Shown here: one piece after another, positions 749-38,075 of the stretch | Layout: each line of letters opens with the position of its first letter | How positions within the stretch are numbered: position 1 is the first letter of the stretch | Source of the DNA: Gemmatimonadota bacterium | GTDB taxonomy: Bacteria; 4572-55; J002 | Length of the DNA stretch: 38,226 nucleotides | Reading direction: 5' to 3' | Assembly: GCA_003697105.1 (NCBI GenBank) | Contig: RFFQ01000136.1 | Coordinates: 1 to 38,226, forward strand | The notes under the pieces: model-generated | Told to the model about the DNA's origin: nothing | Database searches by the model: none | The model's input: only the letters and a program-made list of their open reading frames with translations | Translations under genes and position numbers: made by a program

Positions 749-772
749 AAACAAGTGAGATTCCCCCCAACC

Positions 773-810
773 AAAAAGCCCGGCTTCCGGTACGGAAAGT
801 CGGGCTTTTT
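773..810. terminator. bidirectional rho-independent terminator
   Basis: AAAAAGCCCG at 773-782 pairs with CGGGCTTTTT at 801-810, with further pairing inside the loop arm (CTTCCG with CGGAAAG). The A-run and T-run at the two ends make it work for both strands. It lies between the convergent muramidase and selD genes and probably serves both. Confidence 0.85.
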
Positions 811-829
811 CTTGGGAAAGAAGTCAAAA

Positions 830-1909: not shown

Positions 1910-1967
1910 AAATACCTCAGGATGAAGTTTCACAATTTTATATTTCAGAGCAACAGTTTCACGCTTC

Positions 1968-1996
1968 AGAATACATCATTGATCTGAGGGCGTCAA
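1968..1996 (-). promoter_or_regulatory. sigma70-like promoter of selD
   Basis: On the minus strand TTGACG (1996-1991), a 17-base spacer and TATTCT (1973-1968) form a good promoter. The predicted transcription start near 1961 leaves a leader of about 50 bases before the selD ATG at 1909. It implies selD is transcribed separately from the two-component operon upstream of it. Confidence 0.65.
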
Positions 1997-2044
1997 GGGT
2001 TGATTTTGGGAGATGGAGACTCGCGGAAGGCGATTTTAATTCTT

Positions 2045-4545: not shown

Positions 4546-4562
4546 GAATGCCTCAGCGGGTA

Positions 4563-5519
4563 TTATTTGTGGTCGGAAAGGTCTTCTGGGAAAATTTTAT
4601 CCACGTCATCAAAAATGCTTTCGTCGAGCTGATTCTCATAGAGTTGCTGAGCCACATTCCGGTTGATAACCGTGTAGGTACCAATCGGTGGGGCAATAGA
4701 GATTTGGGCTGGTTGAACATGGTCTTGTCCGATCCGTTTTGCCACCAAAGCCAGTTGGGAACCTAAACTATGATAATCAATGGAAATAGAGAAAAAAGCA
4801 CCCGGTTTGAGAAACGCTTCTGAAAACGCAAGGATGGGCTTTTGTGTCTGTTGAGAAAAACGGATCAAGTCTTGAATCGCGGTGGTATTCCGGTTGTACA
4901 GTTTGGTATCTGCCAACATCCATAACCCGTCGATACGCTTTTGCTGTTTTTTAAGTTTTGCAGTTAGCGTATTGGGATCGTTAATGGCAATTTTAATCAA
5001 TTGGATTCCCATCTGGCTTGCGTGGGCTTGGGCTTCTTCCACAATTTCAGAGGAGACTTCCGGATGGTAGGGCACACCGATAGAATGTATCTGCGGTGAA
5101 ATCAGCCGAAATTGGGTAAACAGGCTCATCGGCGGAATTTCCATCGAGATACCGGTAACATTCTCTTGCCGGAGTTCCGGGTAGCGCTTGTAATTAATCA
5201 CCATAGAAAAGATGATCGGGCGTTCCTGCTCAACCCGAATCGTAGTTTTCGCCGCCAGTAAACCCAAACAGATAATCACATCTGGCTGGTGAAGCTCGAT
5301 AAATTGCTTTACTTTGCGCGAGTCAGCGTTGCCTTCGAGGTCCAAAATGGCTGGATTCGCCTCTGGGAAGCTGTTCTGAAATCCGGTAATCACCTCATCA
5401 ATTTGCCGGAGACTTTTACTTTTGATGATAGCGTAGGTCTCCGTAGCTTCAGCCTGCCCCGCAACGGATAAGACCCCCATTACAATACATAGGATAATCA
5501 GATAATTTCGAGTACTCAT
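4563..5519 (-). CDS. ABC_sub_bind-type periplasmic substrate-binding protein
   Basis: This 318-residue protein starts with a cleavable signal peptide (hydrophobic core YLIILCIVMGVLSVAG, likely cut after AEA near residue 25). The mature part resembles the ABC_sub_bind family (PF04392) of two-lobed periplasmic binding proteins, with segments such as DVIICLGLLAAK, NVTGISMEIPP, SIGVPYHPE and FSEAFLKPGAFFSISIDY. Members usually feed an ABC permease, but no permease or ATPase gene is present. GGAGG lies four bases before the ATG. It sits 10 bases after the other binding-protein gene and 17 bases before the histidine kinase, which points to a sensory role. The ligand is not deducible by eye. Confidence 0.82.
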   Translation of the reverse strand: MSTRNYLIILCIVMGVLSVAGQAEATETYAIIKSKSLRQIDEVITGFQNSFPEANPAILDLEGNADSRKVKQFIELHQPDVIICLGLLAAKTTIRVEQERPIIFSMVINYKRYPELRQENVTGISMEIPPMSLFTQFRLISPQIHSIGVPYHPEVSSEIVEEAQAHASQMGIQLIKIAINDPNTLTAKLKKQQKRIDGLWMLADTKLYNRNTTAIQDLIRFSQQTQKPILAFSEAFLKPGAFFSISIDYHSLGSQLALVAKRIGQDHVQPAQISIAPPIGTYTVINRNVAQQLYENQLDESIFDDVDKIFPEDLSDHK

Positions 5520-5529
5520 TCTGCCTCCG

Positions 5530-6309
5530 CTAGGATTCTACATTAAATCCGGTAATACCAAAATACCGTAAAACGACTTTCGTCGCCCCTTGGTAAGGCA
5601 TATCTTTAAATACGGAAATAAACCGGTCAACATTTTGGGTTTGCGGAAAAACAACGACCTTGGGGTAAGCAATTGGTTTCAGCTCTTGAAGAATATGCAA
5701 TTGGTCAACAACGTTGGGGTTTATTTGCCGTAATTTTTCCAAGCTACTGGGGGTGACAATCGCGCCATCCACTTGGTCAAAACCGAGCGCCATAATGGCA
5801 TCAATATCTTTCGAGACAGACATCACCCGGACATCTTGGGCGCGGAGTTCCTCCGGCAACTGGGCATTCAGATATTCTTGCGATACCGCACCGGCAGAAA
5901 CCGTCGCCAAACTTTTATTTTTCAGATTTTGCACCAATGAGATCGATTTGGAAACCACAAGCACTTTTGTAAACACCGGGGTCTGTTCGTAGTGACCGGC
6001 AAGGATAGATTTCCAATTATAGTGAGATTTCATCGATTCATAATAGTAGGAAGCGACAATCGCCACATCAGGTTTCAGTTGGTCAACGGCGCGTTGAAAA
6101 TCATCTGGATTAGCAAACACGTAAACATCCGCCGTAATGTGCTGGGATTCCAGATAATCGATTAGGTTTTGGCGCACTTTATCTACATTGCTGACGCCGG
6201 CTTCGGGATTATAGATGAAGATCGTCTCCGCTCCCAACAGGGGAGTCCATAAAAGCAAAACACCAAGCAACCAATATTGAAAGTGACTTACACTTGATTT
6301 ATAACGCAT
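5530..6309 (-). CDS. PhnD-like periplasmic binding protein
   Basis: This 259-residue protein has a signal peptide (YWLLGVLLLWTPLLGA, likely cleavage before ETIF near residue 28). Its body resembles the phosphate/phosphonate-type (PhnD, PF12974) solute-binding proteins: an early strand FIYNPEAG, DVAIVASYYYES, KSLATVSAGAVSQEYL and DAIMALGFDQVDGAIVTPSS. It is a little shorter than typical PhnD proteins (about 280-340 residues). GGGAG precedes the ATG. It is the first gene after the three receptor genes and follows an 86-base gap with a hairpin. No ABC permease or ATPase is present, so it may act as a signalling ligand carrier rather than a transporter part. The actual ligand may differ from phosphonate. 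Confidence 0.78.
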   Translation of the reverse strand: MRYKSSVSHFQYWLLGVLLLWTPLLGAETIFIYNPEAGVSNVDKVRQNLIDYLESQHITADVYVFANPDDFQRAVDQLKPDVAIVASYYYESMKSHYNWKSILAGHYEQTPVFTKVLVVSKSISLVQNLKNKSLATVSAGAVSQEYLNAQLPEELRAQDVRVMSVSKDIDAIMALGFDQVDGAIVTPSSLEKLRQINPNVVDQLHILQELKPIAYPKVVVFPQTQNVDRFISVFKDMPYQGATKVVLRYFGITGFNVES

Positions 6310-6365
6310 AACACTCCCATATTTTCCGTCACCATGAGGTACCGGGTTTTAAGAAATAGATTCTG

Positions 6366-6391
6366 GGTCGCCCACGGGTTTATGGGCGACC
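6366..6391 (-). other. intercistronic hairpin inside the receptor/sensor operon
   Basis: GGTCGCCCA at 6366-6374 pairs perfectly with TGGGCGACC at 6383-6391 around an 8-base loop, four bases after the stop codon of the TonB receptor gene on the minus strand. The minus-strand sequence after it is not a T-run, so it is not a standard terminator. It may stabilise the 3' end of the receptor message, attenuate read-through, or mark a processing site. Confidence 0.7.
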
Positions 6392-6395
6392 ATCA

Positions 6396-8630
6396 TTAGT
6401 AGTTCATATGCAACGAGACCAACACGGCACGCCCGGGTTGGGGTAATAACGAGTTATAATAGCTTTGGGAACCCCCCACCCATGTTCCGTCAGATTCAAA
6501 ATAACCGGGCGTAGTACCCGCTCCGGCATCCCGAATACCGGGATGGTCATACTCAGTATCAAATAAATTATAGACATCAACTGAGAGTCCCAAGCCACTC
6601 CCGACGACATTGAGCCATTCCAGATGCACATCGGTAGTGAAAAAGCCATCCACTGCAGGAATGGGGTTGGAATCAACCGTTTCCCGTTCGCCAATAAAGC
6701 GTCCTCGAACGGTACCCCAGACGTTGGAACCAATGGAACTGGTAATTCCAAACCACAATTTATCCATTGCTAAATCGCCAATGGCACCCTCACCCACATG
6801 AATTCCATCTTCAAATTTAGCTTCTTCCGCCTTAAAAATATGAGAATAATAGAGCCAGGCTTTAAGTTGGCGCGCCTCAGTATTTACCAACTGGTAATGA
6901 AAATGATAATCCATTCCGGTGACCGTGCGGTCTCCCAGATTTTTCGCACCATCCGGTGTATTCACGATTGTTTTCGTATTGTTCACCTGCCAAAAACTAA
7001 TCAAATTTTTGGAATTTCGCCAGTAATAACTAGCACTGATTTCAACCGTTTTGGATTCCTCCGGTTTTAGGTTCGGGTCACTCCCGGAGCCCGTCCAACC
7101 ACCGTACAATAAACGCGGAACCGGTTCCTGAAACGCCTCACCATAAAGCACTTTCAGACCCAATTTACCGAGTTTTGCCGTGTAGCCAGAGCGGATGGTA
7201 GTGGCACTGCCATATTTGGAATTATCATCCAGACGAACTCCCAAATGCAATTGATGTACCCCATCTTGTCCCCATAGGTTCTCCAGGCGGTAACGGCTTT
7301 GTACATAAACCCCTATATCCTCGGTGAAAATTCGGTTTTGTGCCTGAAACACCGCCGGTGGCGGCTCAGGATACTGATACGTAGCGGCATCAATCTCACC
7401 AACCGGTTCGTAGCCACCGGGCGTTCCGGCGGCACTTTCCCCATTAATGTCATAGGCTTTTTGCAAATATTTCTGCTCGTACTTCATTCCCGTATTGAAC
7501 GAAAACATCTTATTCACTTTCACATCAAAGTCTTGATTAAAAGAAATACTCGCATTCAATATCTGCCAATAGGAGAACGCCGCCACATAATTTTCGCCAT
7601 CAAAATAAGCATCGACAAAATAGGAATCATTCGAAACATCACTGCGGCGGAAACGCAACATAGAGGTGGAAAATAAATGTTCATTCAAACGGTGTTGATG
7701 GCGAACAAAAAAGCTGTAATCGGGGCGTTTCCAGACCGCTTTATTCTGGACTTTATCCGCCGGAAAAACCAAACCGTACCCGCCATCGGTCACAAAATAC
7801 TGCAACCCCATTTCCGTATCCCCCATATAAAGGCGGGCATCCAATCCGCGATGCCGGCGTGGTGAGGAAAATTCACCGGCAATATTGGGATTATCGACAA
7901 AGCCGCCCCAGATGTTCCGATCCGCATAATATTTATCCTGCAAAAACTCGTAGCGTTGGGCGGCATCTTTATCCAAATCCCCGTTATCTAAATGCACGGC
8001 AAGGCTGAGCCGCAGGTCATCTTTTTTATAAAAATAATGCAGATCGGCAATCTGGGTATCATGGGGACCTCGTGTCAACCGGCTGGAAAAATGCGACCCA
8101 TTTTCCGCCATATCTTTTTGGGTGATGATATTAATGACACCCATAAAGGCATTGGCACCATAGACGGAAGACGCCGGACCATAGACCACTTCAATGCGAT
8201 CCACATACGAAAGAGGGATAGTTAATAGAGGAGTATCCCCGGTATTGTAGTATAGATGGTTCAAAATGACACCATCAACCATTACTAAAAACGGTTCGCC
8301 GATGGTGTTGCGATAACCGCGCCAATAATTTTTAAACTGGGTATCCCCATAAGGTCGGATCACCTCCATACCGGGGAGATCATCCAAAATATGGGAAACT
8401 TCGGTATATCCTCGTTGTTGTAAATCCTCTTGAGTCAGCACAATGACGGTAGCCGGTGCTTCAGAGAGTTTTTCAGCGGTATTCGAGGCGGTTAAAATTT
8501 CCACATCGAGCAAATTTTCAAGCTCATAAAAGCTGAGTTCATCTTGGGCATCATTCAAATCTTCACCGGAACTCAGCCCACATAGCACCGTTATCATGAC
8601 AACCACGATACACCCAAATAAACGACTCAT
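6396..8630 (-). CDS. TonB-dependent outer-membrane receptor (third in operon)
   Basis: This 744-residue protein has a signal peptide (about 1-22), then ELSFYELENLLD and a TonB-box-like EILTAS. The plug domain spans about 53-170 (ATVIVLTQEDLQQRGY, LDDLPGMEV, DRIEVVYGPASSVYGANA, GVINIITQ), followed by a long beta-barrel. The C-terminus ends in an aromatic residue (LHMNY), as expected for BamA recognition. AGGAGG lies upstream of the ATG, and 13 bases separate it from the preceding receptor gene. Such receptors import scarce ligands (siderophores, cobalamin, metals, glycans) using TonB energy. Nothing in the sequence fixes the substrate. It differs strongly from the two other receptors outside the N-terminal motif and plug, so the three may bind different ligands. 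Confidence 0.95.
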   Translation of the reverse strand: MSRLFGCIVVVMITVLCGLSSGEDLNDAQDELSFYELENLLDVEILTASNTAEKLSEAPATVIVLTQEDLQQRGYTEVSHILDDLPGMEVIRPYGDTQFKNYWRGYRNTIGEPFLVMVDGVILNHLYYNTGDTPLLTIPLSYVDRIEVVYGPASSVYGANAFMGVINIITQKDMAENGSHFSSRLTRGPHDTQIADLHYFYKKDDLRLSLAVHLDNGDLDKDAAQRYEFLQDKYYADRNIWGGFVDNPNIAGEFSSPRRHRGLDARLYMGDTEMGLQYFVTDGGYGLVFPADKVQNKAVWKRPDYSFFVRHQHRLNEHLFSTSMLRFRRSDVSNDSYFVDAYFDGENYVAAFSYWQILNASISFNQDFDVKVNKMFSFNTGMKYEQKYLQKAYDINGESAAGTPGGYEPVGEIDAATYQYPEPPPAVFQAQNRIFTEDIGVYVQSRYRLENLWGQDGVHQLHLGVRLDDNSKYGSATTIRSGYTAKLGKLGLKVLYGEAFQEPVPRLLYGGWTGSGSDPNLKPEESKTVEISASYYWRNSKNLISFWQVNNTKTIVNTPDGAKNLGDRTVTGMDYHFHYQLVNTEARQLKAWLYYSHIFKAEEAKFEDGIHVGEGAIGDLAMDKLWFGITSSIGSNVWGTVRGRFIGERETVDSNPIPAVDGFFTTDVHLEWLNVVGSGLGLSVDVYNLFDTEYDHPGIRDAGAGTTPGYFESDGTWVGGSQSYYNSLLPQPGRAVLVSLHMNY

Positions 8631-8643
8631 GGCTATCCCCCTC

Positions 8644-10677
8644 CTAATCTAAGGTGATAGAATATGACACTTTTACTGAAAATTCCCGAGACATATCTGG
8701 GAGTGGTGCGTGAAAACCATCATAAGGTTGAAGATAAACATTTTTTTCATCTAGGAGGTTGTAAATGCCCAATCCGACGTCCAAACCATCATATAGCAAA
8801 TCCGACGCCTGTAAATAGAGATGAAATAGCATTATGGGTTCATATTTTTTCAACATAGGAGATTCGTATTGGTCGGGGGCATAGCCATATCGTTTGCTCA
8901 TGGCAACAACGGAAGGATTAAGAGAGATGTGGTCATTGAGCTTCAGATGGGTACTTGCTGTAAATTTGTGCGCGGGGAAGGCTAAATGTAATTGATCTTC
9001 TCCCGGCACCTGATAATCCGGCACTTTATCATAAGCAACTTGATAAAATGAATAGGTTAGATTCGCATAACCCCGGTTGTTACGGTATTTATACTCAACT
9101 TCGATGCCTTGCGTACCGCTCTCCTCAAAATTGAGATAATATTCGATGTCAAACACCTCATCATATACATACACAATCGGGTCTTTAATTTTCGTATGGT
9201 AAACATTGGCAACCACAGCATTGTTATCCGATAATTGATACCCCAATTCCACCTCGTACACTGATGTATTTTCGGTATCGATCTTTTTGTGGATTGCGCC
9301 TTCTGCAATCCCGATCTGATTCGTGCGAACATGTTCAATAGCGGGGGCGCGAAAAGCAGCGCTCACCAGTGCTTTGATATGAAATCGCTTGCGCGTATGA
9401 GTTAAAGCGATTCGGGGTACAAAGGAATTGCCATACGCATCGTGATCATCGTATCGCGCACCAAGCGTCAGGTTAAACCAATCCCGATTGATCAGTAATT
9501 GGCTCAACAGCGCAATATTGTTGTAATCAACCTCTTTTTTGCCGTCATAATAGTTTTCTGGGAGGGTTTTATCGCCGACGACCGCTTTTTCATTAAAAAA
9601 CTCACCGCCCACGATCAGATTGGTTTGTGGATTAATATCGTACGATGCTACCAACTTAGTTTTGATCTGGTCAACATGGGTATCCAAAAAAAGATAATCA
9701 TCCGGTGCAACTTCATCATTAAACCATGAATATTGACGCTTGAAATCAATTTGAGGTGTCAACGTCAGATGTTCGCCCCAATGGTAGGTGTATTTTATTT
9801 CTCCAAAATAGGAATCAAAATCGATAAAAGGGGGTTGGGGGTACACTATATCATCTACGACGGCTTCATCAAAAGCATCTCGTTGGGTGGTGTGGTACTT
9901 GTCCATCACCCAGCGCGCGCTAAATCCTTTATAACCCAAACTCAGACTCACATTCATCGGGTTTAAATCAGAATTATGCGTCATGTCATAGGTTTGCTCG
10001 TAAAAATCGGTGTAGGTGCGGTCACTACGGATGCCCTCACCGCCAAAGATCGATGCACTCAGGTGCAAATGGTCAAAAACACGACCATACGCTAAACTCA
10101 CCTGCCGCCGGGCAGTCGTATTGGTTGTACTGCCATACACACCCGTTAAAAACAGCCCGTTTAAGTCCGTTGCGCGTTTGGTGGTAATGTTGATCACGGC
10201 GAGTTCCGCATAGCCACCGTACAACGGAGACCCGGGACCCCGGATAATTTCAATCGATTGAATGAAATCAACGGGAAAATGGTGTCCAAACTGAAGCGTA
10301 GAATATAAGCGTTCGTTGTATTCTAATCCATCGATCAGGAGCAACACCTTGCCTTCGTTTGCCCAATTTCCGCGCATTCCCACGCCAACCACGCCCTGTA
10401 CATCCACACCAAAATCAAACCCGGGCACCAAGCGCAAGACATCAATCAGATCACGAGCACCCGAATGTTGAATTTGTTCCGCCGTAATGCGGGTCACAAT
10501 TCCGGGAGATTCGCGTAAAGTCAACGGTTTAATCGAAGCAACCGTGACGACCTCATCCAACAGATTTTCAAGCTCGTAAAAACTCAATTCTTCCTCGGCA
10601 CTAGACTGTGCCCACACGAGGTGCCACGGCAAGAGTAAGCTCACCAGAACCCCCATTAAACACCATAGTTTAGGCAT
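8644..10677 (-). CDS. TonB-dependent outer-membrane receptor (second in operon)
   Basis: This 677-residue protein has a signal peptide ending near WAQ (residue 24), the shared segment EEELSFYELENLLD, a TonB-box-like VVTVAS (about 43-48) and a plug domain. Plug motifs include ITAEQIQHSGARDLID, LRLVPGFDF, VLLLIDGLEYNE, IEIIRGPGSPLYGG and AVINITTKR. The barrel is rich in alternating polar and aromatic strands. The C-terminal residues are SYSITLD, so it lacks the usual terminal aromatic residue. AAGGGGG precedes the ATG at 10675-10677. The gene lies 15 bases after the first receptor gene and 13 bases before the third. The substrate is unknown. Confidence 0.95.
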   Translation of the reverse strand: MPKLWCLMGVLVSLLLPWHLVWAQSSAEEELSFYELENLLDEVVTVASIKPLTLRESPGIVTRITAEQIQHSGARDLIDVLRLVPGFDFGVDVQGVVGVGMRGNWANEGKVLLLIDGLEYNERLYSTLQFGHHFPVDFIQSIEIIRGPGSPLYGGYAELAVINITTKRATDLNGLFLTGVYGSTTNTTARRQVSLAYGRVFDHLHLSASIFGGEGIRSDRTYTDFYEQTYDMTHNSDLNPMNVSLSLGYKGFSARWVMDKYHTTQRDAFDEAVVDDIVYPQPPFIDFDSYFGEIKYTYHWGEHLTLTPQIDFKRQYSWFNDEVAPDDYLFLDTHVDQIKTKLVASYDINPQTNLIVGGEFFNEKAVVGDKTLPENYYDGKKEVDYNNIALLSQLLINRDWFNLTLGARYDDHDAYGNSFVPRIALTHTRKRFHIKALVSAAFRAPAIEHVRTNQIGIAEGAIHKKIDTENTSVYEVELGYQLSDNNAVVANVYHTKIKDPIVYVYDEVFDIEYYLNFEESGTQGIEVEYKYRNNRGYANLTYSFYQVAYDKVPDYQVPGEDQLHLAFPAHKFTASTHLKLNDHISLNPSVVAMSKRYGYAPDQYESPMLKKYEPIMLFHLYLQASDLLYDGLDVGLGIYNLLDEKNVYLQPYDGFHAPLPDMSREFSVKVSYSITLD

Positions 10678-10692
10678 GGAAACCCCCTTTCA

Positions 10693-12909
10693 TCAAAAGT
10701 GGTATCGAAATCGTGCCCAAAAACTGGTCTCTTCTAAAGCAGGCGTGCCATCTGATAAATCGGGACCCTCTGCATTACTGTTCATCGGGTATAAATTATC
10801 CTGATTTAGCAAGTTTTTAATATTGACCGACACGTCGATTTGCGGGGTAAATTCATAAATGGCACCCACATTAACAATATGATTCCCATCCACCGCTTGA
10901 TCGCGCGGAGAATACCATTGATAATAATAGAGATAATTCATGGCGATGGTAGATTGAGGTGTTGGCGTGGCAATCACATTCAGGCGTGTCACATTTTCGG
11001 GGAAAGCTTTAAAGTTGAGGTCATTTGTGAGGTACATACTGGCGCGTTGTTGGTCAGGGGCATCGCTAATTTTCACCAAAGCATGGCTCAGATTCAGGCT
11101 ATATTTTTCCTGCGTGTAGGTCAAGCTAGCTTCCACGCCGTATTGTTTAATTTTCCCATCGTTATTTTTGAAGAACCAGTACCCGTTCCAATCCCCGGGA
11201 ACATCCGAACCAATTGTAACCATTGGGAAGACCTCCGGATCGCGCCAGATCACCCCCACATCAATCACGTTTTCAATGACATTATAAAACCCAACCGCAT
11301 CAAGAACCACATTCGGGGCGGGTTTGTAATTTGCCGCTAGCTCAAAACTACTCATACTTTCGGGTTCGGTTTCTGTTTGATCCGGCTCATACGCCCCGGT
11401 TGGATTGCCATTCGCATCATAGATGGGAATTTGCGCCGCATGAATTTGATCAAAATTTTCACCCGATAACAAACCATCATTCCGGTAACCGCCCCCATAA
11501 TGGACGCCTGCCGCCCCACGAAAACCGGTCTGCCACGAAAAACGGAGCCGCAAATCATCGGTGGGGACATATAATACTCCCAAACGCGGTGACAGATGAC
11601 TCCCCCAGAAAGGATGCTGGTCATACCGGAACGCCCCGAATATATCCAATTGCGGTGCCATCTGGTAAAAATCTTCAACAACTAGACTCAACACATCAAT
11701 TTCATCAGGATACCCCCACGTCCGTTGCACATTTGCCTGTGGTAGGGCTTCCAACGTTGCTTCATTTAACACATTGATAATAAAATTATCGCCGTTGATG
11801 TTTTCCTGACCAAATTCAAAGCGCCGGTATTCCGCCCCAATTGCCAACTGATGGTGCTCAAAAAGATGATTTAGATTCAAAATAGAAGTAATCCCGTAGC
11901 GGTTTTCGCGAGTGCCCCCAGCCGTTAATCCCATCACCGAAGAGAGGAAAAAATCATCACGAGCCAGCAGTGCCCGCGTTCGCAAGGTGATATGTTCCGA
12001 AAATGAATAATGATGCTCTAGCCCTAGCATCGTCAACACTTCCCGGGTCCGGTTGCGGTCACGATAAAAGTTGTATAGGTCTTTTTGTTGGTCAACATAA
12101 AGCAAATTGAGTTTAAGCTGCCCGGATTCTATTGCGCCAAATGCCGTGGTGTTATCCGTCCGTTTAAGGCGAGTGCCAATATCTGCCACAGTACCGCCAG
12201 TTATTCCTTCATTTGTTTTATTGAGTGCCCAGCCTTCTTCTCGCAACTCTTGCCCATCATAGCGCGAACTGGAAAGATAGAAATAGCTGGAGAGCGCATC
12301 CGTCTGGATGGACGTCTCCAGCGCACCAAGGGCGAGACGATCTAAACCACCAGAGCCGGTGATAGCGGATTGAGCCATATTTTGCGAGGCACTACCCGAC
12401 TTCGTCACAATATTAATAACACCCAACAACGCACCCTGACCTAACGTTACGGAACCGGGACCTCGAATCACTTGAACGTGGTCAATCCACTCATAATTGA
12501 TTGTGTTCAAAATCGCATCGGGAGGTCCCCAAAACCATTCGGTATTCAGGTAATGTCCATTCATCAACAGCATCACTTTGGAATTGTTATCCGGGGCTAA
12601 TCCTCGAAAACCGGCAATGATGTCATCTTGGTCTTCAACAAGAAAAAACCCGGGAACATACATCATGATCGCTTCACTGAGGGTGCGGGCGCCACTGAGC
12701 TCGAGTTGGCGGTGGGAGATGGTGGTGATGGAGACCGGTTGCCGCTCCTTTGCGGTTACAACATTCGAGGCAACGGTGATATTGGAAACATTTAGCAGAT
12801 GTTCCAACTCGTAAAAGAGGAGTTCTTCTTCTGCAGAGTCTTGGGCAAAAAGGGAAGAAGGATACATACCTAAGCTAAGAAGCACACACATCACACCCAA
12901 CATACGCAT
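10693..12909 (-). CDS. TonB-dependent outer-membrane receptor (first in operon)
   Basis: This 738-residue protein opens the operon. It has a signal peptide ending near FAQ (residue 23), the shared EEELLFYELEHLLN, a TonB-box-like NITVAS and a plug domain (ITTISHRQLELSGA, AGFRGLAP, VMLLMNGHYLNTEW, HVQVIRGPGSVTLGQGA, GVINIVTKSG). A beta-barrel follows and ends in the aromatic FRYHF. An ideal AAGGAGG lies seven bases before the ATG at 12907-12909; an ATG two codons later is possible but less well placed. A promoter overlapping an inverted repeat lies about 70-110 bases upstream. The transported ligand cannot be inferred. Confidence 0.95.
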   Translation of the reverse strand: MRMLGVMCVLLSLGMYPSSLFAQDSAEEELLFYELEHLLNVSNITVASNVVTAKERQPVSITTISHRQLELSGARTLSEAIMMYVPGFFLVEDQDDIIAGFRGLAPDNNSKVMLLMNGHYLNTEWFWGPPDAILNTINYEWIDHVQVIRGPGSVTLGQGALLGVINIVTKSGSASQNMAQSAITGSGGLDRLALGALETSIQTDALSSYFYLSSSRYDGQELREEGWALNKTNEGITGGTVADIGTRLKRTDNTTAFGAIESGQLKLNLLYVDQQKDLYNFYRDRNRTREVLTMLGLEHHYSFSEHITLRTRALLARDDFFLSSVMGLTAGGTRENRYGITSILNLNHLFEHHQLAIGAEYRRFEFGQENINGDNFIINVLNEATLEALPQANVQRTWGYPDEIDVLSLVVEDFYQMAPQLDIFGAFRYDQHPFWGSHLSPRLGVLYVPTDDLRLRFSWQTGFRGAAGVHYGGGYRNDGLLSGENFDQIHAAQIPIYDANGNPTGAYEPDQTETEPESMSSFELAANYKPAPNVVLDAVGFYNVIENVIDVGVIWRDPEVFPMVTIGSDVPGDWNGYWFFKNNDGKIKQYGVEASLTYTQEKYSLNLSHALVKISDAPDQQRASMYLTNDLNFKAFPENVTRLNVIATPTPQSTIAMNYLYYYQWYSPRDQAVDGNHIVNVGAIYEFTPQIDVSVNIKNLLNQDNLYPMNSNAEGPDLSDGTPALEETSFWARFRYHF

Positions 12910-19745: not shown

Positions 19746-22019
19746 CTATTCAATTTTAATCACGACGACGGTCACATCATCAAAGGGATCGGTATCCCCG
19801 ATGAAAGCTTCCACATCATCCAAAATATACTGCAATATGTCATCCGCGGTAGCGGAGGCATCATGGGTTTCTAAGAGGGAGATAAGACGGTGAATCGAAT
19901 AAGGTTCCCGTTGAGGATTCATGGCATCCTCTAGCCCGTCGGTAGTGAGAACAATCACATCCCCAGCCTTTAGGGTAAACGTTGTCTGATCATAATCGCG
20001 GGTTTTCAAGTTGCTGAAGGGCAGGCGAAATTGGGTAGCGGGAAGTTCCTGACAGACACCATCGCGGATGAGCAAGGGATACGGTACACCGGCAAGGGCA
20101 TAAGTCAACTGATGATCATTTGTATCAACCAAAAAATAACCCGCCGCCACAAACATCCCCTTTTGCAAATCGGGCGCAATCCAGCGACGGGTTGCATTCA
20201 CCACATCCACCGGAATCATTTTTTCGGAAGCTTGTGCCCGGAACACACTGCGGGTAGTCGCCATGATCAAGGCGCCGGGGATTCCTTTTCCGGCAACATC
20301 GCCAATAATCACCCCCAGCCGCTGGGTATTGTCGGAAAAGGTCACAAAGTCATAAAAATCACCCCCGACTTGGGTCGCGGCAATAGACGCCCCTGCCACC
20401 TGACATCCGGCAATGTGAGGGCTATGCGAGGGTAGAAGCCCTACTTGAATTTGATGGGCAATTTCCAGTTCCTGTTGCAAACGCATCTGTACTGCCACTT
20501 CCGCATGAAGACGAGCATATCCTAAAGCCAGCGCCGCCTGACGTCCCAGTTGGTGCAACAAGTCAAGATCATCCGCAATAAAATTTCGACCCTGATGAGT
20601 AGCACCTAAGTTGAGCATTCCCACCACGTTGGAATTGGCGATCAAGGGTACGCAAAGCGTTATATCCTGGGGGCGGAGGTGCTTCACTTCCTCAGGATGC
20701 ACACCGCAAAAATTAAGTTTGCGTAATTCCACGATCCGCGTGGGATAATCAACATCAATTAACCAATTGATAAACGCCTCATTGGGTTGGAAAAACGCCC
20801 CATCATCACTCACAAATTCCCGCGAATAGGGGCTCCGTAACCACAACCGCACATGCGACAGTTGCAACGCTTGGCGGAGTTGATCCACTAACATCGCTTG
20901 GAGGGTATCGATTTCAATGGCGCCCTGTAATTTTTCCGTCAATTGAGCAATCGCCTGCTGGTAGGCGATCCGGTGACGGTAGATCGTCCGATTGACCAGA
21001 TTTTGTGCCTCTTGGCGTAAAGGATTAAATAGATAGACCAATATCACCGTGGTAATAATTGGTACCAGTTCGTGATCCGAGCCGGTAAAACGGGTAACTA
21101 GCCACGCCATGCTGGTGGAAATTCCCAAAAAGAGCAAGATGATCAGTCCGGTCAGAACGCCATACACCAAACTGCGCTTGATGATCAAATCCACATCCAT
21201 CAAGCGGTATTTGAAAATGGCAAACGCAAACGAAACCGGCAATGCCACCATGCCCAAATAACCGATGTTCCAAATCGGGTCCAAATCAAAGAAAAGGTCC
21301 ATCAAAAACAGCAGACCACTGGTACCAAAACCGATTCCTGCCCCCCACATCACCCAGCGGAGTTGGCTGCGGATTTCCATATCCGGTTGGCGCTTATAAT
21401 TCCACGCAATAAAATAAATACCCGACCAAATCCCCAGTCCGGTCAAAATCCAGATTACCCAACCGGTGACATACGTGTGCCAATAGTAACTTGAGCCAAA
21501 GACAGACCCCAAAATCTGGGTATCAAAAATAGCATTACTGCCTAAAATAATCGTCACCCCAACAAACAGGGCATCGATTATCCCCAAACCGGTTAAGATG
21601 CGTTTAGCGTTTTTGAGATAGGCTGGGGTGATGGGAGGAGACGGAAATCGATAAAACAACACGGCAAACAGAAAGGCAGATAGCACCAACCCCACCCGTT
21701 GTATCACGTAGATATAAAATTGCCATAGCGGTGGGTGTGCCGTAAACGGGAGCGGAAAGATAATCACCGGCAAATGAAAGAGAGAAAACACAAAGCAGAA
21801 GAGAAAAAAAAGCCGTGAAGCGTTTTCATCTGGACGGAACCATAGGACAAGCGTACCGATGCAGAACGTCATCACCGCCACCGTGGTAAAACTACTCCGG
21901 ATCAACGTTTGTCCAATGGATGATACTTCCACGACACTGTAAATCCCAACCCCCGTATACACCGTGAAGAGGGTGATTATCGTGATCAGAATCAACCGTA
22001 TGGGATGAAAAACGTTCAT
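19746..22019 (-). CDS. membrane GAF-SpoIIE (PP2C-type) serine phosphatase
   Basis: This 757-residue protein has about eight or nine N-terminal membrane segments (roughly 8-330) ending in YRLMDVDLIIKRSLVYG, a layout also seen in some sensor kinases. A linker (FNPLRQEAQNLVNRTIYRHR) leads to a GAF domain (about 375-505) and a C-terminal SpoIIE/RsbU-type phosphatase domain (about 530-757). Metal-binding and core motifs of the PP2C fold are visible: GGDFYDF, GDVAGKGIPGALIMA, TTDGLEDAMN and DPFDDVTVVV. Such enzymes dephosphorylate Ser/Thr residues, classically on anti-sigma-factor antagonists, but no anti-sigma or antagonist gene is nearby. The start has only a weak upstream GGA. The gene is 10 bases upstream of the propeller lipoprotein and heads the operon with ktrBA. 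Confidence 0.92.
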   Translation of the reverse strand: MNVFHPIRLILITIITLFTVYTGVGIYSVVEVSSIGQTLIRSSFTTVAVMTFCIGTLVLWFRPDENASRLFFLFCFVFSLFHLPVIIFPLPFTAHPPLWQFYIYVIQRVGLVLSAFLFAVLFYRFPSPPITPAYLKNAKRILTGLGIIDALFVGVTIILGSNAIFDTQILGSVFGSSYYWHTYVTGWVIWILTGLGIWSGIYFIAWNYKRQPDMEIRSQLRWVMWGAGIGFGTSGLLFLMDLFFDLDPIWNIGYLGMVALPVSFAFAIFKYRLMDVDLIIKRSLVYGVLTGLIILLFLGISTSMAWLVTRFTGSDHELVPIITTVILVYLFNPLRQEAQNLVNRTIYRHRIAYQQAIAQLTEKLQGAIEIDTLQAMLVDQLRQALQLSHVRLWLRSPYSREFVSDDGAFFQPNEAFINWLIDVDYPTRIVELRKLNFCGVHPEEVKHLRPQDITLCVPLIANSNVVGMLNLGATHQGRNFIADDLDLLHQLGRQAALALGYARLHAEVAVQMRLQQELEIAHQIQVGLLPSHSPHIAGCQVAGASIAATQVGGDFYDFVTFSDNTQRLGVIIGDVAGKGIPGALIMATTRSVFRAQASEKMIPVDVVNATRRWIAPDLQKGMFVAAGYFLVDTNDHQLTYALAGVPYPLLIRDGVCQELPATQFRLPFSNLKTRDYDQTTFTLKAGDVIVLTTDGLEDAMNPQREPYSIHRLISLLETHDASATADDILQYILDDVEAFIGDTDPFDDVTVVVIKIE

Positions 22020-22103: not shown

Positions 22104-22134
22104 TAAAAAAACCGCGAATCGGCAGATTCACGGT
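22104..22134 (-). terminator. rho-independent terminator of the metacaspase operon
   Basis: On the minus strand a 10-base stem (ACCGTGAATC with GATTCGCGGT, one G-U pair) closes a 4-base loop and is followed by seven T residues. It lies about 25 bases after the stop of the receiver-kinase gene and before the phosphatase operon, so it separates two operons on the same strand. Confidence 0.88.
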
Positions 22135-22158: not shown

Positions 22159-23265
22159 TCAATCCATTTTCCGCCGGAGCCAGATGGTGACACAGGTTTG
22201 ACCTTCTGCGGGGTTGGAAATCTGCAATTTGCCCTCGTGCAATTCAAGCAACCGCTTGGCAATAGTTAAACCTAAACCAGAGCCTTGTTGTTCGTGCTGA
22301 CCTCGTTTGAATTGCATGAATGCTCCAATGTTGGCAATCTGATCCGGTGTCATACCCACACCTTGATTTGTGATTTGGCAGATGTACCACTCGTCTTCCA
22401 ACCACGACTGAATGATCACGTTTGTACCCTCACTGGAAAAATCAAAGGCATTTTTGACCAGTTCTTCCATGACTTTAGTCATACCTTCTTCACTGATCAT
22501 CACCCCACCATTGACCAGTCGGAGTTCCAAATCATGGGGGCGCTTAAATTGGGTGGCTTTCCGCTGAGCGATATATTGAATAATTGTTGCCGCATTGGAA
22601 ACACTCAATTTACAGAGTTCCCGGCGCTTTTCCGGGTCACTAAACATCAATTCCACTTTGGCATATAACTCATAATTTTGGATTAAGCGATACAGCCGTT
22701 GCGCACCCTTGCGGATCATCCCTGCAACTTTTTTGACCTTTTGATCATCTTCTGGGTTCTGCAATTCTCCGGCTAATAAAAAATCGGTTCCGGTAATGAT
22801 TGCCGTCAAAGGAGTGCGTAATTCATGGGGGAGGGCATAGCCAATATTATCGCGCAGGGTTTTTAATTTTTTTTCATTCAAGATATTTAGCGCTTCTTGC
22901 TTTTGGAACCGGGCATGTATCGATTGCAACAATTCCTTGAAACGAAAGGGTTTTGTCAGATAATCATCTCCGCCCATACTCATTCCCTTGCGAATATCCG
23001 CTTTGCTATCTTTGGCGGTCAGAAAAATAAAGGGAATTGCCGCCGTAACAACATTCCGGCGGAGATAATCCCGAAACTTGTAACCGTTCATTTTCGGCAT
23101 CATCACATCACAGATAACCAAATCCGGTAACTGTCGATTGACATATTCAATTGCCTCATCACCATCACAAGCCGTAATGACCTCAAAACCTTCTCGCTCA
23201 AGCCCCTTGCGCAACACTTCCCGGATGGTGGCATCATCATCAACAACAAGAATCGATTTCGACAT
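22159..23265 (-). CDS. soluble receiver-histidine kinase fusion
   Basis: This 368-residue protein has an N-terminal receiver domain (about 4-120; Asp10-11, phosphoacceptor Asp53 in ICDVMMP, Thr83, Lys105) joined to a histidine kinase. The kinase shows the H-box LPHELRTPLTA with His147, the N-box ELVKNAFDFS (268-277), a G1-like NQGVGMTP (300-307) and the G2 box GSGLGLTIAKRL (328-339). No membrane segment or PAS domain is present, so it is cytoplasmic and probably takes its input through the receiver. The start has AAGAGG four bases upstream. It is the last gene of the operon headed by the metacaspase lipoprotein and is followed by a strong terminator. A phosphorelay with the separate receiver protein of the same operon is plausible. 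Confidence 0.93.
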   Translation of the reverse strand: MSKSILVVDDDATIREVLRKGLEREGFEVITACDGDEAIEYVNRQLPDLVICDVMMPKMNGYKFRDYLRRNVVTAAIPFIFLTAKDSKADIRKGMSMGGDDYLTKPFRFKELLQSIHARFQKQEALNILNEKKLKTLRDNIGYALPHELRTPLTAIITGTDFLLAGELQNPEDDQKVKKVAGMIRKGAQRLYRLIQNYELYAKVELMFSDPEKRRELCKLSVSNAATIIQYIAQRKATQFKRPHDLELRLVNGGVMISEEGMTKVMEELVKNAFDFSSEGTNVIIQSWLEDEWYICQITNQGVGMTPDQIANIGAFMQFKRGQHEQQGSGLGLTIAKRLLELHEGKLQISNPAEGQTCVTIWLRRKMD

Positions 23266-23273
23266 AGCGCCTC

Positions 23274-24017
23274 TTACTCAACTTGGGTGACCGTATAAGA
23301 CGCAACGGCTTCAAATGATTTTCCATTCACCAAATCATCCAGTGAATAGCGCCAATGTGCCATATTCCCGAAAACCTCACTGGCGTTACCCCCCTGAATT
23401 TTGTGCGGTAAAATCAAATCAAAAGAATATTCAAACCCATCCATCATCTGGATCACCATCTGTCGAAGGGTTTCGTGCATCTGCTGGTTGGTTGGAGACA
23501 GACCGGAATCCGGTGTGGCATGGCTCAGGCGGTCATTGCCAAACCGTACCTGTTCGCGGTAAGTAAACGTTTGCCCGGCGTGTTCATACATTACCTGAAA
23601 TAATGCCGGTTGGTTTTCAACCATCTCGCCGGATTCTTTATCACAGGCTTCCAAACGGGTCAAGGCGGTAATCATGGAATCAACCGTTGTAAAGGTTTGG
23701 GAAAGCGTATAAACCGCATTCTTCCCCCGGACTTCCGAAGAAAATCGCCAACCCAAATCATGATAACATTGGGAGTCCAAATTGCCTAAAATATCGGTGG
23801 TGTGTGAGTCTGGTGTCCCGGCGGAATCGTCCGCCGCCAACTGTTGTGCCATTGCTTGTAACTGGTAAACCGTCTGCTCCGGAATGATCAGTTGGATTTC
23901 CCGATAGACGGACTGATCGGGATAAATATGTGTCCGAACATGCAGTTGGTAACACCCATTGGCGATCACCAACAACCCCATCCAAAACAGGACAAATACA
24001 GAACGAATTCCCCGCAT
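23274..24017 (-). CDS. lipoprotein of unknown function
   Basis: This 247-residue protein has a signal peptide with the lipobox VIANGC (lipidated Cys22) and Tyr at +2, which in E. coli would direct it to the outer membrane. I do not recognise the mature domain. It starts with beta-type segments (LHVRTHIYPDQSVYREIQLIIP) and includes a helical, polar stretch (about 50-70, VYQLQAMAQQLAADDSAG). It ends with IQGGNASEVFGNMAHWRYSL and a strand VASYTVTQVE. The pattern loosely resembles small periplasmic lipoproteins that ask for a folded beta domain, but no motif can be named. It begins four bases after the receiver gene and ends eight bases before the receiver-kinase gene, so it belongs to the metacaspase operon and may be a sensor or partner in the envelope. 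Confidence 0.82.
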   Translation of the reverse strand: MRGIRSVFVLFWMGLLVIANGCYQLHVRTHIYPDQSVYREIQLIIPEQTVYQLQAMAQQLAADDSAGTPDSHTTDILGNLDSQCYHDLGWRFSSEVRGKNAVYTLSQTFTTVDSMITALTRLEACDKESGEMVENQPALFQVMYEHAGQTFTYREQVRFGNDRLSHATPDSGLSPTNQQMHETLRQMVIQMMDGFEYSFDLILPHKIQGGNASEVFGNMAHWRYSLDDLVNGKSFEAVASYTVTQVE

Positions 24018-24021
24018 AGGC

Positions 24022-24396
24022 TCACTCTGGTGATGATTTCAACTGTTTGTGGAGCGCCGCGATTAGCACCCGCCCCGAAACCGGTTTTACCAGATAATCA
24101 TCAGCGGTCAGTGCGAACCCTTTGCGGATGTCCTGACGGGTGGCTTTCGCAGTCAGAAAAATAAACGGCACCGTAGCCATCGGTTCATAGGCGCGAATTT
24201 CTCGCAAGACCGCATAGCCATCGGCGCGCGGGAGCATAATATCACAGATAATGGCATCGGGGCAATGTTCTTTTGCCATTTTGATCCCCTCTTCGCCATC
24301 CATTGCTTTCAAGACCTCAAATCCGGCAAGACGCAGTTGTTCCTCCAGCACCCGCAGGGTAAACACTGCATCTTCAATCACTAACACACGTGGCAT
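24022..24396 (-). CDS. receiver-only response regulator
   Basis: This 124-residue protein is a lone CheY-like receiver domain with all key residues: Glu8-Asp9, phosphoacceptor Asp52 in ICDIMLP, Thr82 in FLTAK and Lys104 in LVKPV. There is no output domain. It is similar to the receiver half of the kinase two genes downstream (shared PFIFLTAK, IRKG, DDYL.KP), suggesting that they arose by duplication. The ribosome-binding site is weak, and the start lies 11 bases after the metacaspase stop, so translation is probably coupled. It could pass phosphoryl groups to or from the receiver-kinase. Confidence 0.92.
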   Translation of the reverse strand: MPRVLVIEDAVFTLRVLEEQLRLAGFEVLKAMDGEEGIKMAKEHCPDAIICDIMLPRADGYAVLREIRAYEPMATVPFIFLTAKATRQDIRKGFALTADDYLVKPVSGRVLIAALHKQLKSSPE

Positions 24397-24407
24397 GAGC
24401 TGACTAT

Positions 24408-26333
24408 TTACTCCATATGTTGCAACAAAAAAATCTGATCCGGTTTTACATATTCACTTTTTAAGATGGGGCGATGACCAAACCGGTTGTAGAATCCGGG
24501 ATAAATTTGGTTATAGACTTCTTGTAATGAGATGCGCCCATCATGATTTTGATCCGATTTGGCAGATTGTAAGGCGCGCAGAATCCGTGCCGTGAGCGCA
24601 CCGTGCCCGGTCGTGGGGTCTTCGCGGGAGAGTTCGCTGGCGCGGCTGGCGGCAAGGAGCGCACAATTGGGGATCGGCAAGTTCGGTTCTAAGGGGTCAA
24701 TATGCTCTGGGTCAATCTCTTCCGCCCCCGGTTTTGCCGCTCCACTGCTGTAACAGGAGTCAAAAATCAACACTTTGGGGTTCTCCTGAGGGAGCCAATC
24801 CATGATCCAACGGGCAAAATCATCATCCACAATCGCCGTTGGTACCCGCCGGTCAAAATTGGGATTCCAATCATAGGGTAAAAGTGCCTCATCAAACCCA
24901 TCTTCCTCATCGGCATCATTGGGCGAATCTGGAACACGCCCCCCATGCCCGCTAAAATAAATCACCCCCACATTTTTGGGGTCGGATTCCAATTTTTCCG
25001 CTAACCAATACGTAATAGCGGCCTGAATTTCAGAGCGGGTCGCCGCTGCATTGGTCAGCAACCGAAAATTTTCCTCAGGAATATTGCCTTGTTGGCGCAG
25101 GGTTTCATAAAGTTCGATGGCGTCCCGGTCACTGTAATCCAAATCCACAAAATTAAAACGCGCATCATCATTTTGATAATTGGCAATACCGATCAGCACA
25201 AAAAAGACGTTGGTGGTGGGGGCTTCTGCCATTAACATGGATTCAAACTGTTCGGGACCGGTGGACCAAAAGTAATACCGTTCAGAGGTCGTCCGTCCCA
25301 GGGCATCCACCACCCGAAGGTCGATCTGGTTTTTGCCGCTTTCAAATTCAAAGGCAGGCAGAAAGAGGTCATACGTACCGGTGGCAGACTGATTCAGTTG
25401 GCGTAAAATACCCGTTTTGGTCTCGGCGGGAATGATCACCTGCTGGTCATTGCGGTACACCGTAAAATCAGAGATACTATAGGGGTTTAAGATGGTAAAA
25501 TGCAGGTCGGCATACCCCCCATCGATATTTTCACAGATGCTCGGTGAGCGCAGTTCTAGGATGGGCTGCTCATTTTGGGCTTTCAACCAGTCGCGATTGC
25601 GCTCTTGCAACCGGAACAAGCGACGTTCAGCGACACAGAGCGAGGTATCTGGATAGACAACCATTTCGCCGAGCCGCTCCCGATAATTTTTCCATTGCAC
25701 CATGGCATCGTAGTCAGAACCGAGACGCTCCTGTGCCTCGGCTAATTGGAACCGGAATTTTTCCTCCTGACATTCCTGCAATGCCCAGCGATAGTGCGCA
25801 ACGGCAGAATCCCACCGGCGCAGTGCGGAAATGGCTTTACCCCGAAATTGGATGGCATCCATATCACACCGGTGGAGTTGCAACAACGTTTCTGCTGTAC
25901 GAATAACATCATGATATTGGCGCTGGGTATAATAGGTGATCATTAATTCCCGTAAGGCGGGGTAATTTTGGGGGTCGATCCGGAGGCATTCATTCAAAAG
26001 CCGGATCGCCTGCTCGTAATTGGTGGGATGGGGCGGGTCAATATATTGGGTGAGCATAAACGCATAATCTAAGTAATACTGGGGTACATACGGATTCACA
26101 CGAATCGCCTTCTCAAACTGCCGGGCGGCAATCACGTATTGCCCCGTATCGCGGTATATCACCCCGAGCAAATGATTGTAGTAATCATCATTGGGATTTT
26201 TGGCGAGTTCCCGTTGAATTTTCCGTTGCGCCGCCTGATAATGCTTTTTATGAACCAGTTCCACAACGCTGGGTGCACAACTACTCAATAGTAGAGCCAG
26301 TACCACTCCCAAAAGCAGAAATCGAACCTTCAC
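24408..26333 (-). CDS. TPR-metacaspase lipoprotein with EF-hand loop
   Basis: The start is the GTG at 26331-26333, giving 641 residues. A longer in-frame start exists at 26537, but the promoter at 26374-26402 lies inside that extension. The lipobox LLSSC puts the lipidated Cys at 19, with Ala at +2 (outer-membrane type). TPR-like repeats run from about 25 to 220, then a beta-rich linker (about 255-350), then a caspase-fold (C14) peptidase domain (about 373-590). The catalytic His463 is in YFSGHGG and Cys527 in FDSCYSS. Between them DEEDGFDEALLPYD (475-488) matches the acidic segment of metacaspases. Near the C-terminus DQNHDGRISLQE (594-605) is a textbook EF-hand Ca2+-binding loop. Metacaspases cut after Arg/Lys and many need Ca2+. 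The protein heads an operon with two-component genes. Confidence 0.92.
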   Translation of the reverse strand: MKVRFLLLGVVLALLLSSCAPSVVELVHKKHYQAAQRKIQRELAKNPNDDYYNHLLGVIYRDTGQYVIAARQFEKAIRVNPYVPQYYLDYAFMLTQYIDPPHPTNYEQAIRLLNECLRIDPQNYPALRELMITYYTQRQYHDVIRTAETLLQLHRCDMDAIQFRGKAISALRRWDSAVAHYRWALQECQEEKFRFQLAEAQERLGSDYDAMVQWKNYRERLGEMVVYPDTSLCVAERRLFRLQERNRDWLKAQNEQPILELRSPSICENIDGGYADLHFTILNPYSISDFTVYRNDQQVIIPAETKTGILRQLNQSATGTYDLFLPAFEFESGKNQIDLRVVDALGRTTSERYYFWSTGPEQFESMLMAEAPTTNVFFVLIGIANYQNDDARFNFVDLDYSDRDAIELYETLRQQGNIPEENFRLLTNAAATRSEIQAAITYWLAEKLESDPKNVGVIYFSGHGGRVPDSPNDADEEDGFDEALLPYDWNPNFDRRVPTAIVDDDFARWIMDWLPQENPKVLIFDSCYSSGAAKPGAEEIDPEHIDPLEPNLPIPNCALLAASRASELSREDPTTGHGALTARILRALQSAKSDQNHDGRISLQEVYNQIYPGFYNRFGHRPILKSEYVKPDQIFLLQHME

Positions 26334-26373: not shown

Positions 26374-26402
26374 ATCATAGCCGACTTTATCCGGTTCGTC
26401 AA
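26374..26402 (-). promoter_or_regulatory. sigma70 promoter of the metacaspase operon
   Basis: On the minus strand TTGACG (26402-26397), a 17-base spacer and TATGAT (26379-26374) form a near-consensus promoter. Transcription would start near 26367, about 34 bases before the GTG at 26333. This position decides the start codon of the metacaspase gene. Confidence 0.75.
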
Positions 26403-26494: not shown

Positions 26495-26586
26495 ACCCCC
26501 CAATGAAGACAACAAGATGATTATCGTACGGGGTCACTTGATCTCACTTTTTTAATTCTCATGATGAGGAAGGAGTTTCACAACCG

Positions 26587-36320: not shown

Positions 36321-38075
36321 ATGCCCCAAATCAACCCATCAAAAGTCCTCTCCCCCAAGAATCCTCTATCCCGAATCGAGTGGTTATGTAAACAGGGAGA
36401 AACTCTTCTTTATGCCGACCCAGAGACCGCACTCGCCTACGGCATGGATGCTTTAAACCTCGTTGAGCAGCATCAAAATATGTTAGGAAAGGCCAGAGCC
36501 CTAGCGCTAATCGGGGGTGTCCACATTGTACAGGGTAATTTCAATTCTGTCCTAGACTATCTGAATCAAGCTTTACAGCTATATTCAAACCTGAAGAATA
36601 CACTAGGAATGGCGGGTTGTTACAATCGAATCGCGTCACTCTATTTTATACAGGGCCATTACGAAGCAAGTTTGACCATGTACCAGCGTGCCCAACGTCT
36701 GTATGAACAAGATCGGGGCGAACCGTTGTCATACGCGAGGGTGTTGGGAAATATAGGAATTCTGTATGTGCGGCACGGCGACTATTCTACCGCGTTGGAA
36801 TATCACTTAAAGGCTTTAAGCATTTATCAACGCTTTGATAACCAAGCGGGAATTGCGAGTATATTTCATCATTTAGCCGCCCTGTATTATGAACAAGGCA
36901 ACCTGCAAATGGCGCAAGAGTACAATTTTCGGGCACTTTCGATAGAAGAACAGCAGGGGAATTTGCTTCGAGTCGCTTATCTGCTGACCAATATTGCAAC
37001 CACTTACGTTGATCTAAAAAAAAATGATCAGGCGATTACGTATGAAACCAAGGCAATCGATATCAAAAATAGGCTCAATAACCCGCACATGCTTGCAGAT
37101 TCTTACACAACGCTAGGTTTGGCGTATGAGGGATTACAGGAGTACACCAAAAGCTTGGATTATCATCTACAAGCACTGACAATCCGTCAAGAGGTTGGGG
37201 ATAACAACGGTCAGTTGATCTCGATACTAAACATCGGCAATATATATAATCAATTAGGCCACTATACCTCTTCGATTGATATTCTGAAAAAGGGTGTAGA
37301 ATTGAGTGAACAACAGGGTCAACCTCGCTTAAAATCAGATGCGCTTGCCCGTTTGGCATGGGCATATCTGAAGTTGAACCAGCTTGAAATCGCCCTAGAC
37401 ACCGGCTTAGCGGCGCTGACCATTGCCCAAGAGATTCAGGCAACAAAACAAATTCAGTACGCTGCGGAATGGCTCTGCCAGATTTATGAACAACAGGGAG
37501 ATTACCAGCATGCCGTTGAGTATCTTCGACTTGCCAAACAAACCAGTGAAGCACGGTTGAATACCGAAAATACCCGCCAACTCAACCAGATGCAAATGCA
37601 GTACGAAGCCCAGAAAAAAGAACAGGAACTCAGCCATCTCCACCAGGAATTGATTCTGCACAAAAAAGAACTCAAAACCATTGCCTTTACCGTAATTCAT
37701 CAACATGAACTACTGTTTGAAACAAAGAAAAAATTAACGGACATCCTTGCTAACCCCTCTTCCAAGAAAAAGTTACGCGAATTTATGCATTGGTTTGAAA
37801 ATCAGATTGACCCCGACAGAACGTGGGTCCAGTTTCAGCGATATTTCAAGCAAGATCAACATGATTTTTTAAACCGTTTAACCGAAGAATTTCCGAGCCT
37901 CACAGAACAACAACTCAAAATTTGTGTACTGATTCGTTCTGAATTTCATACGAAAGAAATTGCCCGCCTCCTATACATCACTGAGCAAAGTGTTCGTAAG
38001 CACCGCCAACGTATCCGCCGCAAACTCCATTTAGAAAAAAAACGGTCCCTCTCGGTGTTTTTAGTATCCTACTGA
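36321..38075 (+). CDS. TPR protein with C-terminal LuxR-like HTH
   Basis: This 584-residue protein has about nine tetratricopeptide repeats (about residues 55-410), most with the pattern A-x-Y-x-x-x-G-x-Y-x-x-A. A coiled coil follows (about 412-475, rich in Gln, Glu and Lys), then a linker and a helix-turn-helix at about 526-575 (LTEQQLKICVLIR, TKEIARLLYITEQSVRKHR). The HTH resembles the LuxR/GerE type. There is no signal peptide or membrane segment. Proteins with this TPR - coiled coil - HTH layout are known as regulators in Bacteroidetes and related phyla, often with a membrane segment that is missing here. AGGGAGA lies before the ATG. The target genes are unknown; the divergent MarR operon is one candidate. 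Confidence 0.9.
   Translation: MPQINPSKVLSPKNPLSRIEWLCKQGETLLYADPETALAYGMDALNLVEQHQNMLGKARALALIGGVHIVQGNFNSVLDYLNQALQLYSNLKNTLGMAGCYNRIASLYFIQGHYEASLTMYQRAQRLYEQDRGEPLSYARVLGNIGILYVRHGDYSTALEYHLKALSIYQRFDNQAGIASIFHHLAALYYEQGNLQMAQEYNFRALSIEEQQGNLLRVAYLLTNIATTYVDLKKNDQAITYETKAIDIKNRLNNPHMLADSYTTLGLAYEGLQEYTKSLDYHLQALTIRQEVGDNNGQLISILNIGNIYNQLGHYTSSIDILKKGVELSEQQGQPRLKSDALARLAWAYLKLNQLEIALDTGLAALTIAQEIQATKQIQYAAEWLCQIYEQQGDYQHAVEYLRLAKQTSEARLNTENTRQLNQMQMQYEAQKKEQELSHLHQELILHKKELKTIAFTVIHQHELLFETKKKLTDILANPSSKKKLREFMHWFENQIDPDRTWVQFQRYFKQDQHDFLNRLTEEFPSLTEQQLKICVLIRSEFHTKEIARLLYITEQSVRKHRQRIRRKLHLEKKRSLSVFLVSY

Follow-up and report, generated by a model that had tools for sequence, protein, structure and literature searches.

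A predicted operon for a metacaspase lipoprotein, an LppM-like lipoprotein and two-component proteins in a Gemmatimonadota genome

Caspase homologues of MEROPS family C14 (PF00656), the metacaspases and orthocaspases, share a p20 fold, a His-Cys dyad and acidic pocket Asp residues, can have tetratricopeptide repeats (TPRs) as a partner domain, and include some exported members. In the main text of a survey of 671 prokaryotic metacaspases, TPRs are reported in ~6-7% of the proteins, possible export in a fraction of them, and signalling, sensor or regulatory domains in 23 of 217 metacaspase operons (PMC3501461). Eukaryotic metacaspases require calcium, whereas the Microcystis orthocaspase does not (PMC5756287). 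The locus described here lies in a 38,226-nucleotide stretch of a Gemmatimonadota genome (assembly GCA_003697105.1, contig RFFQ01000136.1, positions 1 to 38,226), hereafter "the window". Its four genes encode a TPR-caspase lipoprotein, a stand-alone receiver, a second, probably LppM-like lipoprotein and a soluble receiver-histidine kinase fusion (the "REC-kinase"). As in the operons of that survey, a caspase gene is co-located with sensor or regulatory genes; the main text of the survey names no case of this gene set. While the best studied C14 members are cytoplasmic, the caspase of the window combines an N-terminal lipobox and TPRs with a C-terminal caspase domain and an EF-hand-like loop. 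The four genes are read here, tentatively and with a probability of about 45%, as an operon for envelope maintenance or envelope stress that was assembled locally, and in which the envelope pair and the relay pair would serve a common response, probably one of the envelope.

The transcription unit and its proteins

The four genes occupy positions 26333-22159 of the minus strand in the order caspase, receiver, lipoprotein, kinase, separated by gaps of 11, 4 and 8 bp. Open reading frames (ORFs) and Pfam matches place all four where the original prediction had them. The unit comprises the following features:

26374..26402, minus strand: predicted sigma-70-like promoter, TTGACG-17 bp-TATGAT (consensus scan, 10 of 12 positions)
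24408..26333, minus strand: TPR-caspase (C14) lipoprotein, 641 aa, GTG start (Pfam, alignment, AlphaFold2)
24022..24396, minus strand: stand-alone receiver, CheY-like, 124 aa (Pfam Response_reg, E=3.9e-25)
23274..24017, minus strand: LppM-like lipoprotein, 247 aa, weak lipobox VIANG/C (profile A1, matches shared with Pfam LppM)
22159..23265, minus strand: soluble REC-HisKA-HATPase kinase, 368 aa (Pfam)
22111..22134, minus strand: intrinsic terminator, 10-pair stem followed by seven T (terminator scoring)

The promoter ranks in the top three matches across 8 kb, and 40 bp lie between it and the start codon of the caspase gene. The terminator scores highest in the region and is the only one that stands out, since 17 terminator-like matches are found against 10.0 expected by chance. 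Together with the tight gaps, these signals support the proposal of a single unit with a near-consensus promoter and a strong terminator, and the four genes are probably read as a single transcript. Their GC content and GC content at third codon positions (GC3) give no sign of recent import, the values being near those of the flanks and slightly below them in the kinase gene. No Rfam family was matched across the window.

The caspase gene likely starts at GTG 26333, which yields the signal sequence MKVRFLLLGVVLALLLSSC; the program-listed start at 26537 is mechanical. The only hydrophobic segment of the protein, at the N-terminus, leads into a good lipobox (LLSS/C) of the bacterial-lipoprotein type, in keeping with the predicted anchoring of the metacaspase in the envelope, and the Ala at +2 makes tethering to the outer membrane probable. 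The lipobox is followed by TPRs (residues ~30-220), an uncharacterised linker (~260-365), the caspase p20 domain (~375-540), with the His in YFSGHGG and the Cys in FDSCYSSG, and a C-terminal part with the EF-hand-like loop DQNHDGRISLQE. The Peptidase_C14 match, located after the TPRs (E=1.3e-13, 51.7 bits against a cut-off of 21.4; 54.1 bits in a whole-genome profile search), and the catalytic His and Cys identify the protein, at the level of sequence, as a C14 caspase homologue (metacaspase/orthocaspase). Across 11 aligned bacterial C14 domains, neither Gly-His-Gly nor Asp-x-Cys varies, and nor does the Asp of the Asp-Ala motif. An acidic S1 pocket for Arg/Lys is present, with an Asp two residues before the Cys and the Asp of Asp-Ala (D35 and D156 are invariant in alignment A2), from which we infer an Arg/Lys-type cysteine protease.

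The best solved sequence relatives are Arabidopsis metacaspase-4 (E=2.4e-9) and yeast-type metacaspases. In an AlphaFold2 model of residues 229-641, built from 41 input sequences, the caspase part mostly exceeds a pLDDT (predicted local distance difference test) of 90, and the closest solved structures in the PDB are metacaspase 9, metacaspase 4, Yca1 and the bacterial GSU0716. The linker ahead of the caspase is unresolved in the model, so that an immunoglobulin-like label for it would be a guess. The loop close to the C-terminus fits an EF-hand and may bind calcium; as a like pattern is present in 31 of 122 C14 proteins, it is a common C14 feature. A scan of the genome contigs with the whole caspase protein gave no relative.

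The second lipoprotein also has a single, N-terminal hydrophobic segment. Its relatives carry clear lipoboxes, in contrast to its own VIANG/C, in which the unusual Asn at -2 makes its lipoprotein status probable rather than certain. Queried alone (P0003), it returns no credible Pfam family and nothing significant in 98 genomes or the PDB. A loose genome search started from it leads to small lipoproteins with the common motif LP-K-I...N...W, and one relative (L165) matches Pfam LppM (PF21946) with E=0.0014 and 19.4 bits, under the 27-bit cut-off. A three-sequence profile of the family (A1) retrieves further lipoproteins, most of them 214-253 residues long. A pair of ORFs (G115 and G212) is matched by both A1 and PF21946, the latter above its cut-off. 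Because the two profiles pick the same ORFs and a relative matches LppM weakly, we conclude that the protein is probably a divergent LppM-like lipoprotein, falling short of formal Pfam membership. Its export to the envelope, as predicted, is probable, while the label "unknown" given to it originally can be dropped. With LppM of M. tuberculosis (Rv2171) it shares the probable lipoprotein character and a similar size, and its relatives the C-terminal motif LPxKI..NA..W; unlike LppM, it has no match of its own to the Pfam model and no C-terminal membrane segment. A single-sequence structure model (mean pLDDT 46.6) is too poor for comparison with the LppM fold. Since M. tuberculosis LppM, a pseudo-beta-barrel, binds phosphatidylinositol mannoside (PMC6151718), lipid contact is a lead for the function of the protein, nothing more.

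The stand-alone receiver retains the phospho-acceptor Asp and the other receiver residues. The REC-kinase (Response_reg 3.4e-30, HisKA 2.2e-8, HATPase_c 1.9e-20) has intact His, Asp and ATP-binding residues, which are conserved with its paralogues (alignment A5). No hydrophobic segment was found in either, so that, judged from sequence, both are cytoplasmic, and the signalling half of the unit is placed inside the cell as originally proposed.

Neighbourhoods of other caspase genes

C14 genes were compared in two surveys, one of 122 genes, including the window's own, from ~75 genomes, and one of 97 genes from named genomes, which together hold 218 genes besides that of the window. ORFs were picked mechanically and a few loci occur in both sets, so the rates are rough; only one other genome of the host's class was among those compared. 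Leaving the window aside, a receiver, kinase or SpoIIE gene occurs in the fetched stretch at 8 of 121 loci of the first survey (at five, no more than three genes away) and within ~7 kb at 24 of 97 loci of the second, many of them Rhodobacterales. Under a stricter definition, a same-strand run with gaps <=100 bp, two loci besides the window remain in the first survey (L056 and L091) and six in the second (five Rhodobacterales and one Brevinematales). A receiver or kinase gene thus lies in the same run as 8 of 218 other C14 genes, in four lineages. The four-gene set of the window is beside none of the 218, and in neither survey was an LppM-like gene (profile A1) found near another C14 gene. At eight Rhodobacterales loci a response regulator and a membrane kinase lie ~1.5 kb from the C14 gene, possibly as conserved synteny. 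These loci were rejected as instances of the same arrangement, as they look like the synteny of one lineage with an intervening ORF.

The ingredients of the window's operon combine independently, as other genomes hold other combinations of them. A C14 lipoprotein is encoded in Nitrospira (L200), and exported TPR-C14 proteins in metagenome-assembled genomes (MAGs) labelled Melainabacteria/Cyanobacteria (L274 and L241). In a spirochaete, a Brevinematales MAG (L238, 727-7657), a same-strand run encodes a TPR lipoprotein, a REC-HD protein, an AAA-type regulator-like protein, an outer-membrane-like protein and a C14 lipoprotein. Like the window, it brings an envelope caspase lipoprotein, a TPR lipoprotein and a receiver protein within a single run; in contrast, its receiver is fused to HD, its TPRs are in a separate gene, and it has neither a REC-kinase nor an LppM-like gene. 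The two are probably independent assemblies. At another locus (L091, G048, 716-6064), genes for a histidine kinase of 1118 aa and a receiver are followed, after an 8 bp gap, by that for a C14 protein whose N-terminus is receiver-like. This locus likewise joins two-component genes and a caspase in an operon-like run, but the caspase has no recognised signal sequence and the locus no lipoproteins. With these cases and the published survey (PMC3501461), neither an envelope caspase nor its nearness to signalling genes is unusual per se, contrary to what had been supposed.

The REC-kinase belongs to a set of eight close paralogues encoded by the genome. The other seven (42-48% identity, one cut by a contig end) adjoin housekeeping or other two-component genes or stand alone, and none is beside a caspase; ~150 receiver or kinase matches are found in the 4.18 Mb of the genome. 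These counts, and the absence of the linkage from most of the 218 neighbourhoods, agree with a chance operon, in which a generic receiver and a REC-kinase of an expanding paralogue family share only the caspase's promoter and serve other pathways. Such an origin is possible, if somewhat doubtful: the two two-component genes interleave with the two lipoprotein genes at gaps of 4-11 bp, so that more than one insertion event would be needed, and operons of unrelated genes are prone to break up. The original prediction had set a comparison of neighbourhoods as its refuting test, to be decided by whether the caspase moves independently of the two-component genes. This is largely what is observed at the range of these surveys, since the paralogous kinases lack caspases and the linkage of C14 genes to two-component genes is rare. 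The phosphorelay "of its own" once ascribed to the caspase is therefore a deduction from co-transcription and not a conserved system.

Flanking genes

As had been noted originally, the operon contains no membrane-spanning link. The next gene downstream, beyond the terminator, is the only membrane-spanning candidate adjoining it:

19746..22019, minus strand: membrane protein (~8 hydrophobic segments)-GAF-SpoIIE phosphatase, outside the operon (Pfam and hydrophobicity)

This multi-pass protein with a signalling output invites the idea that one of the two lipoproteins, caspase or LppM-like, acts as a sensor of envelope damage and that a membrane protein, possibly this one, carries the signal inward to the relay. 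A second caspase locus of the genome, also near a GAF-SpoIIE gene and a lone receiver, points the same way. We consider it unlikely, however, as the terminator separates the operon from the SpoIIE gene, the SpoIIE protein of the second locus is encoded on the opposite strand and has no membrane part, and no SpoIIE-type membrane gene is near most other C14 genes. With ~13 SpoIIE genes in the genome, the nearness may be due to chance; SpoIIE phosphatases as a mark of both caspase loci were left as a weak candidate, their architectures also differing. The second locus (L052, contig C19, 1919-10382) encodes another exported caspase, a C14-PEGA protein, followed by a TPR lipoprotein, and is convergent with the GAF-SpoIIE gene, a large secreted protein and the lone receiver. 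TPRs and caspase are split there and fused in the window.

On the upstream side, glyS is divergent from the operon, and trkH/trkA-like genes are also near. Bacterial conflict systems can contain C14 proteases, and a PADLOC caspase profile matches weakly (E=1.4e-9, caspase domain alone), as might be expected of a cell-death or anti-phage module whose protease kills the cell upon a phosphorelay signal. This is very improbable here: the match is generic to the caspase fold, the protease is exported, the neighbours are housekeeping genes, and nothing nearby was recognised as an NTPase, death-like domain, gasdermin or other effector. Anti-phage defence was rejected, PADLOC giving just generic domain matches for the four proteins.

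Elsewhere in the window, a SelD-like selenide water dikinase gene (830-1909, minus strand) has an in-frame TGA at codon 26 (motif ACAG-U-ASK). If this TGA codes for selenocysteine, the frame continues upstream past the listed TTG start, which suggests that the host uses selenocysteine. In a long same-strand cluster (2045-12909, minus strand), three TonB-dependent receptor-like genes in tandem are accompanied by those for a membrane histidine kinase, a receiver and two substrate-binding proteins, one of the ABC_sub_bind and one of the phosphonate-binding type. At 36321-38075 (plus strand), a TPR protein bears a C-terminal LuxR-type DNA-binding domain.

Possible role in the envelope

Under the preferred reading, that of an envelope-maintenance or envelope-stress operon, one transcript would encode a pair of exported lipoproteins together with a pair of soluble phospho-signalling proteins. 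The TPR-caspase, tethered to the membrane, probably the outer one, would cleave as an Arg/Lys-specific cysteine protease, its TPRs binding a substrate or partner and its EF-hand-like loop possibly calcium. The LppM-like lipoprotein may be its envelope partner or a reader of the envelope lipid state. The receiver and the REC-kinase would be intracellular relay parts fed by other kinases of a two-component-rich genome, and, being made alongside the envelope pair, could adjust signalling upon its induction; direct contact across the membrane would not be needed. Co-expression is the best supported of these steps, and a shared pathway is likely.

Several points weigh against this reading. The linkage of caspase and two-component genes does not appear to be conserved in other genomes, the kinase belongs to a family expanded genome-wide, and neither receiver protein has, apart from the kinase, an output domain for DNA binding or enzyme activity. 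A specificity-pocket Cys known from metacaspases such as the trypanosome enzyme seems to be a Ser in the caspase, so that protease activity is likely rather than certain. Furthermore, the biochemically characterised prokaryotic orthocaspase was active without calcium (PMC5756287). A stronger version, in which a lineage-specific two-compartment system couples the tethered metacaspase and a lipid-contacting LppM-like lipoprotein across the membrane to the soluble REC-kinase relay, placing regulated envelope proteolysis under two-component control, is improbable.

All parts of the operon are of known kinds, and a dedicated signalling link for the caspase is no more than possible. As it stands, the locus adds one more well-defined example to the exported bacterial caspase homologues, a group whose functions are very poorly understood, with a link that lacks conservation across the surveyed C14 genes. 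If the operon works as a unit, it would be a small system in which a link between envelope proteolysis and a phosphorelay can be tested, and the LppM-like lipoprotein would gain a genetic partner.

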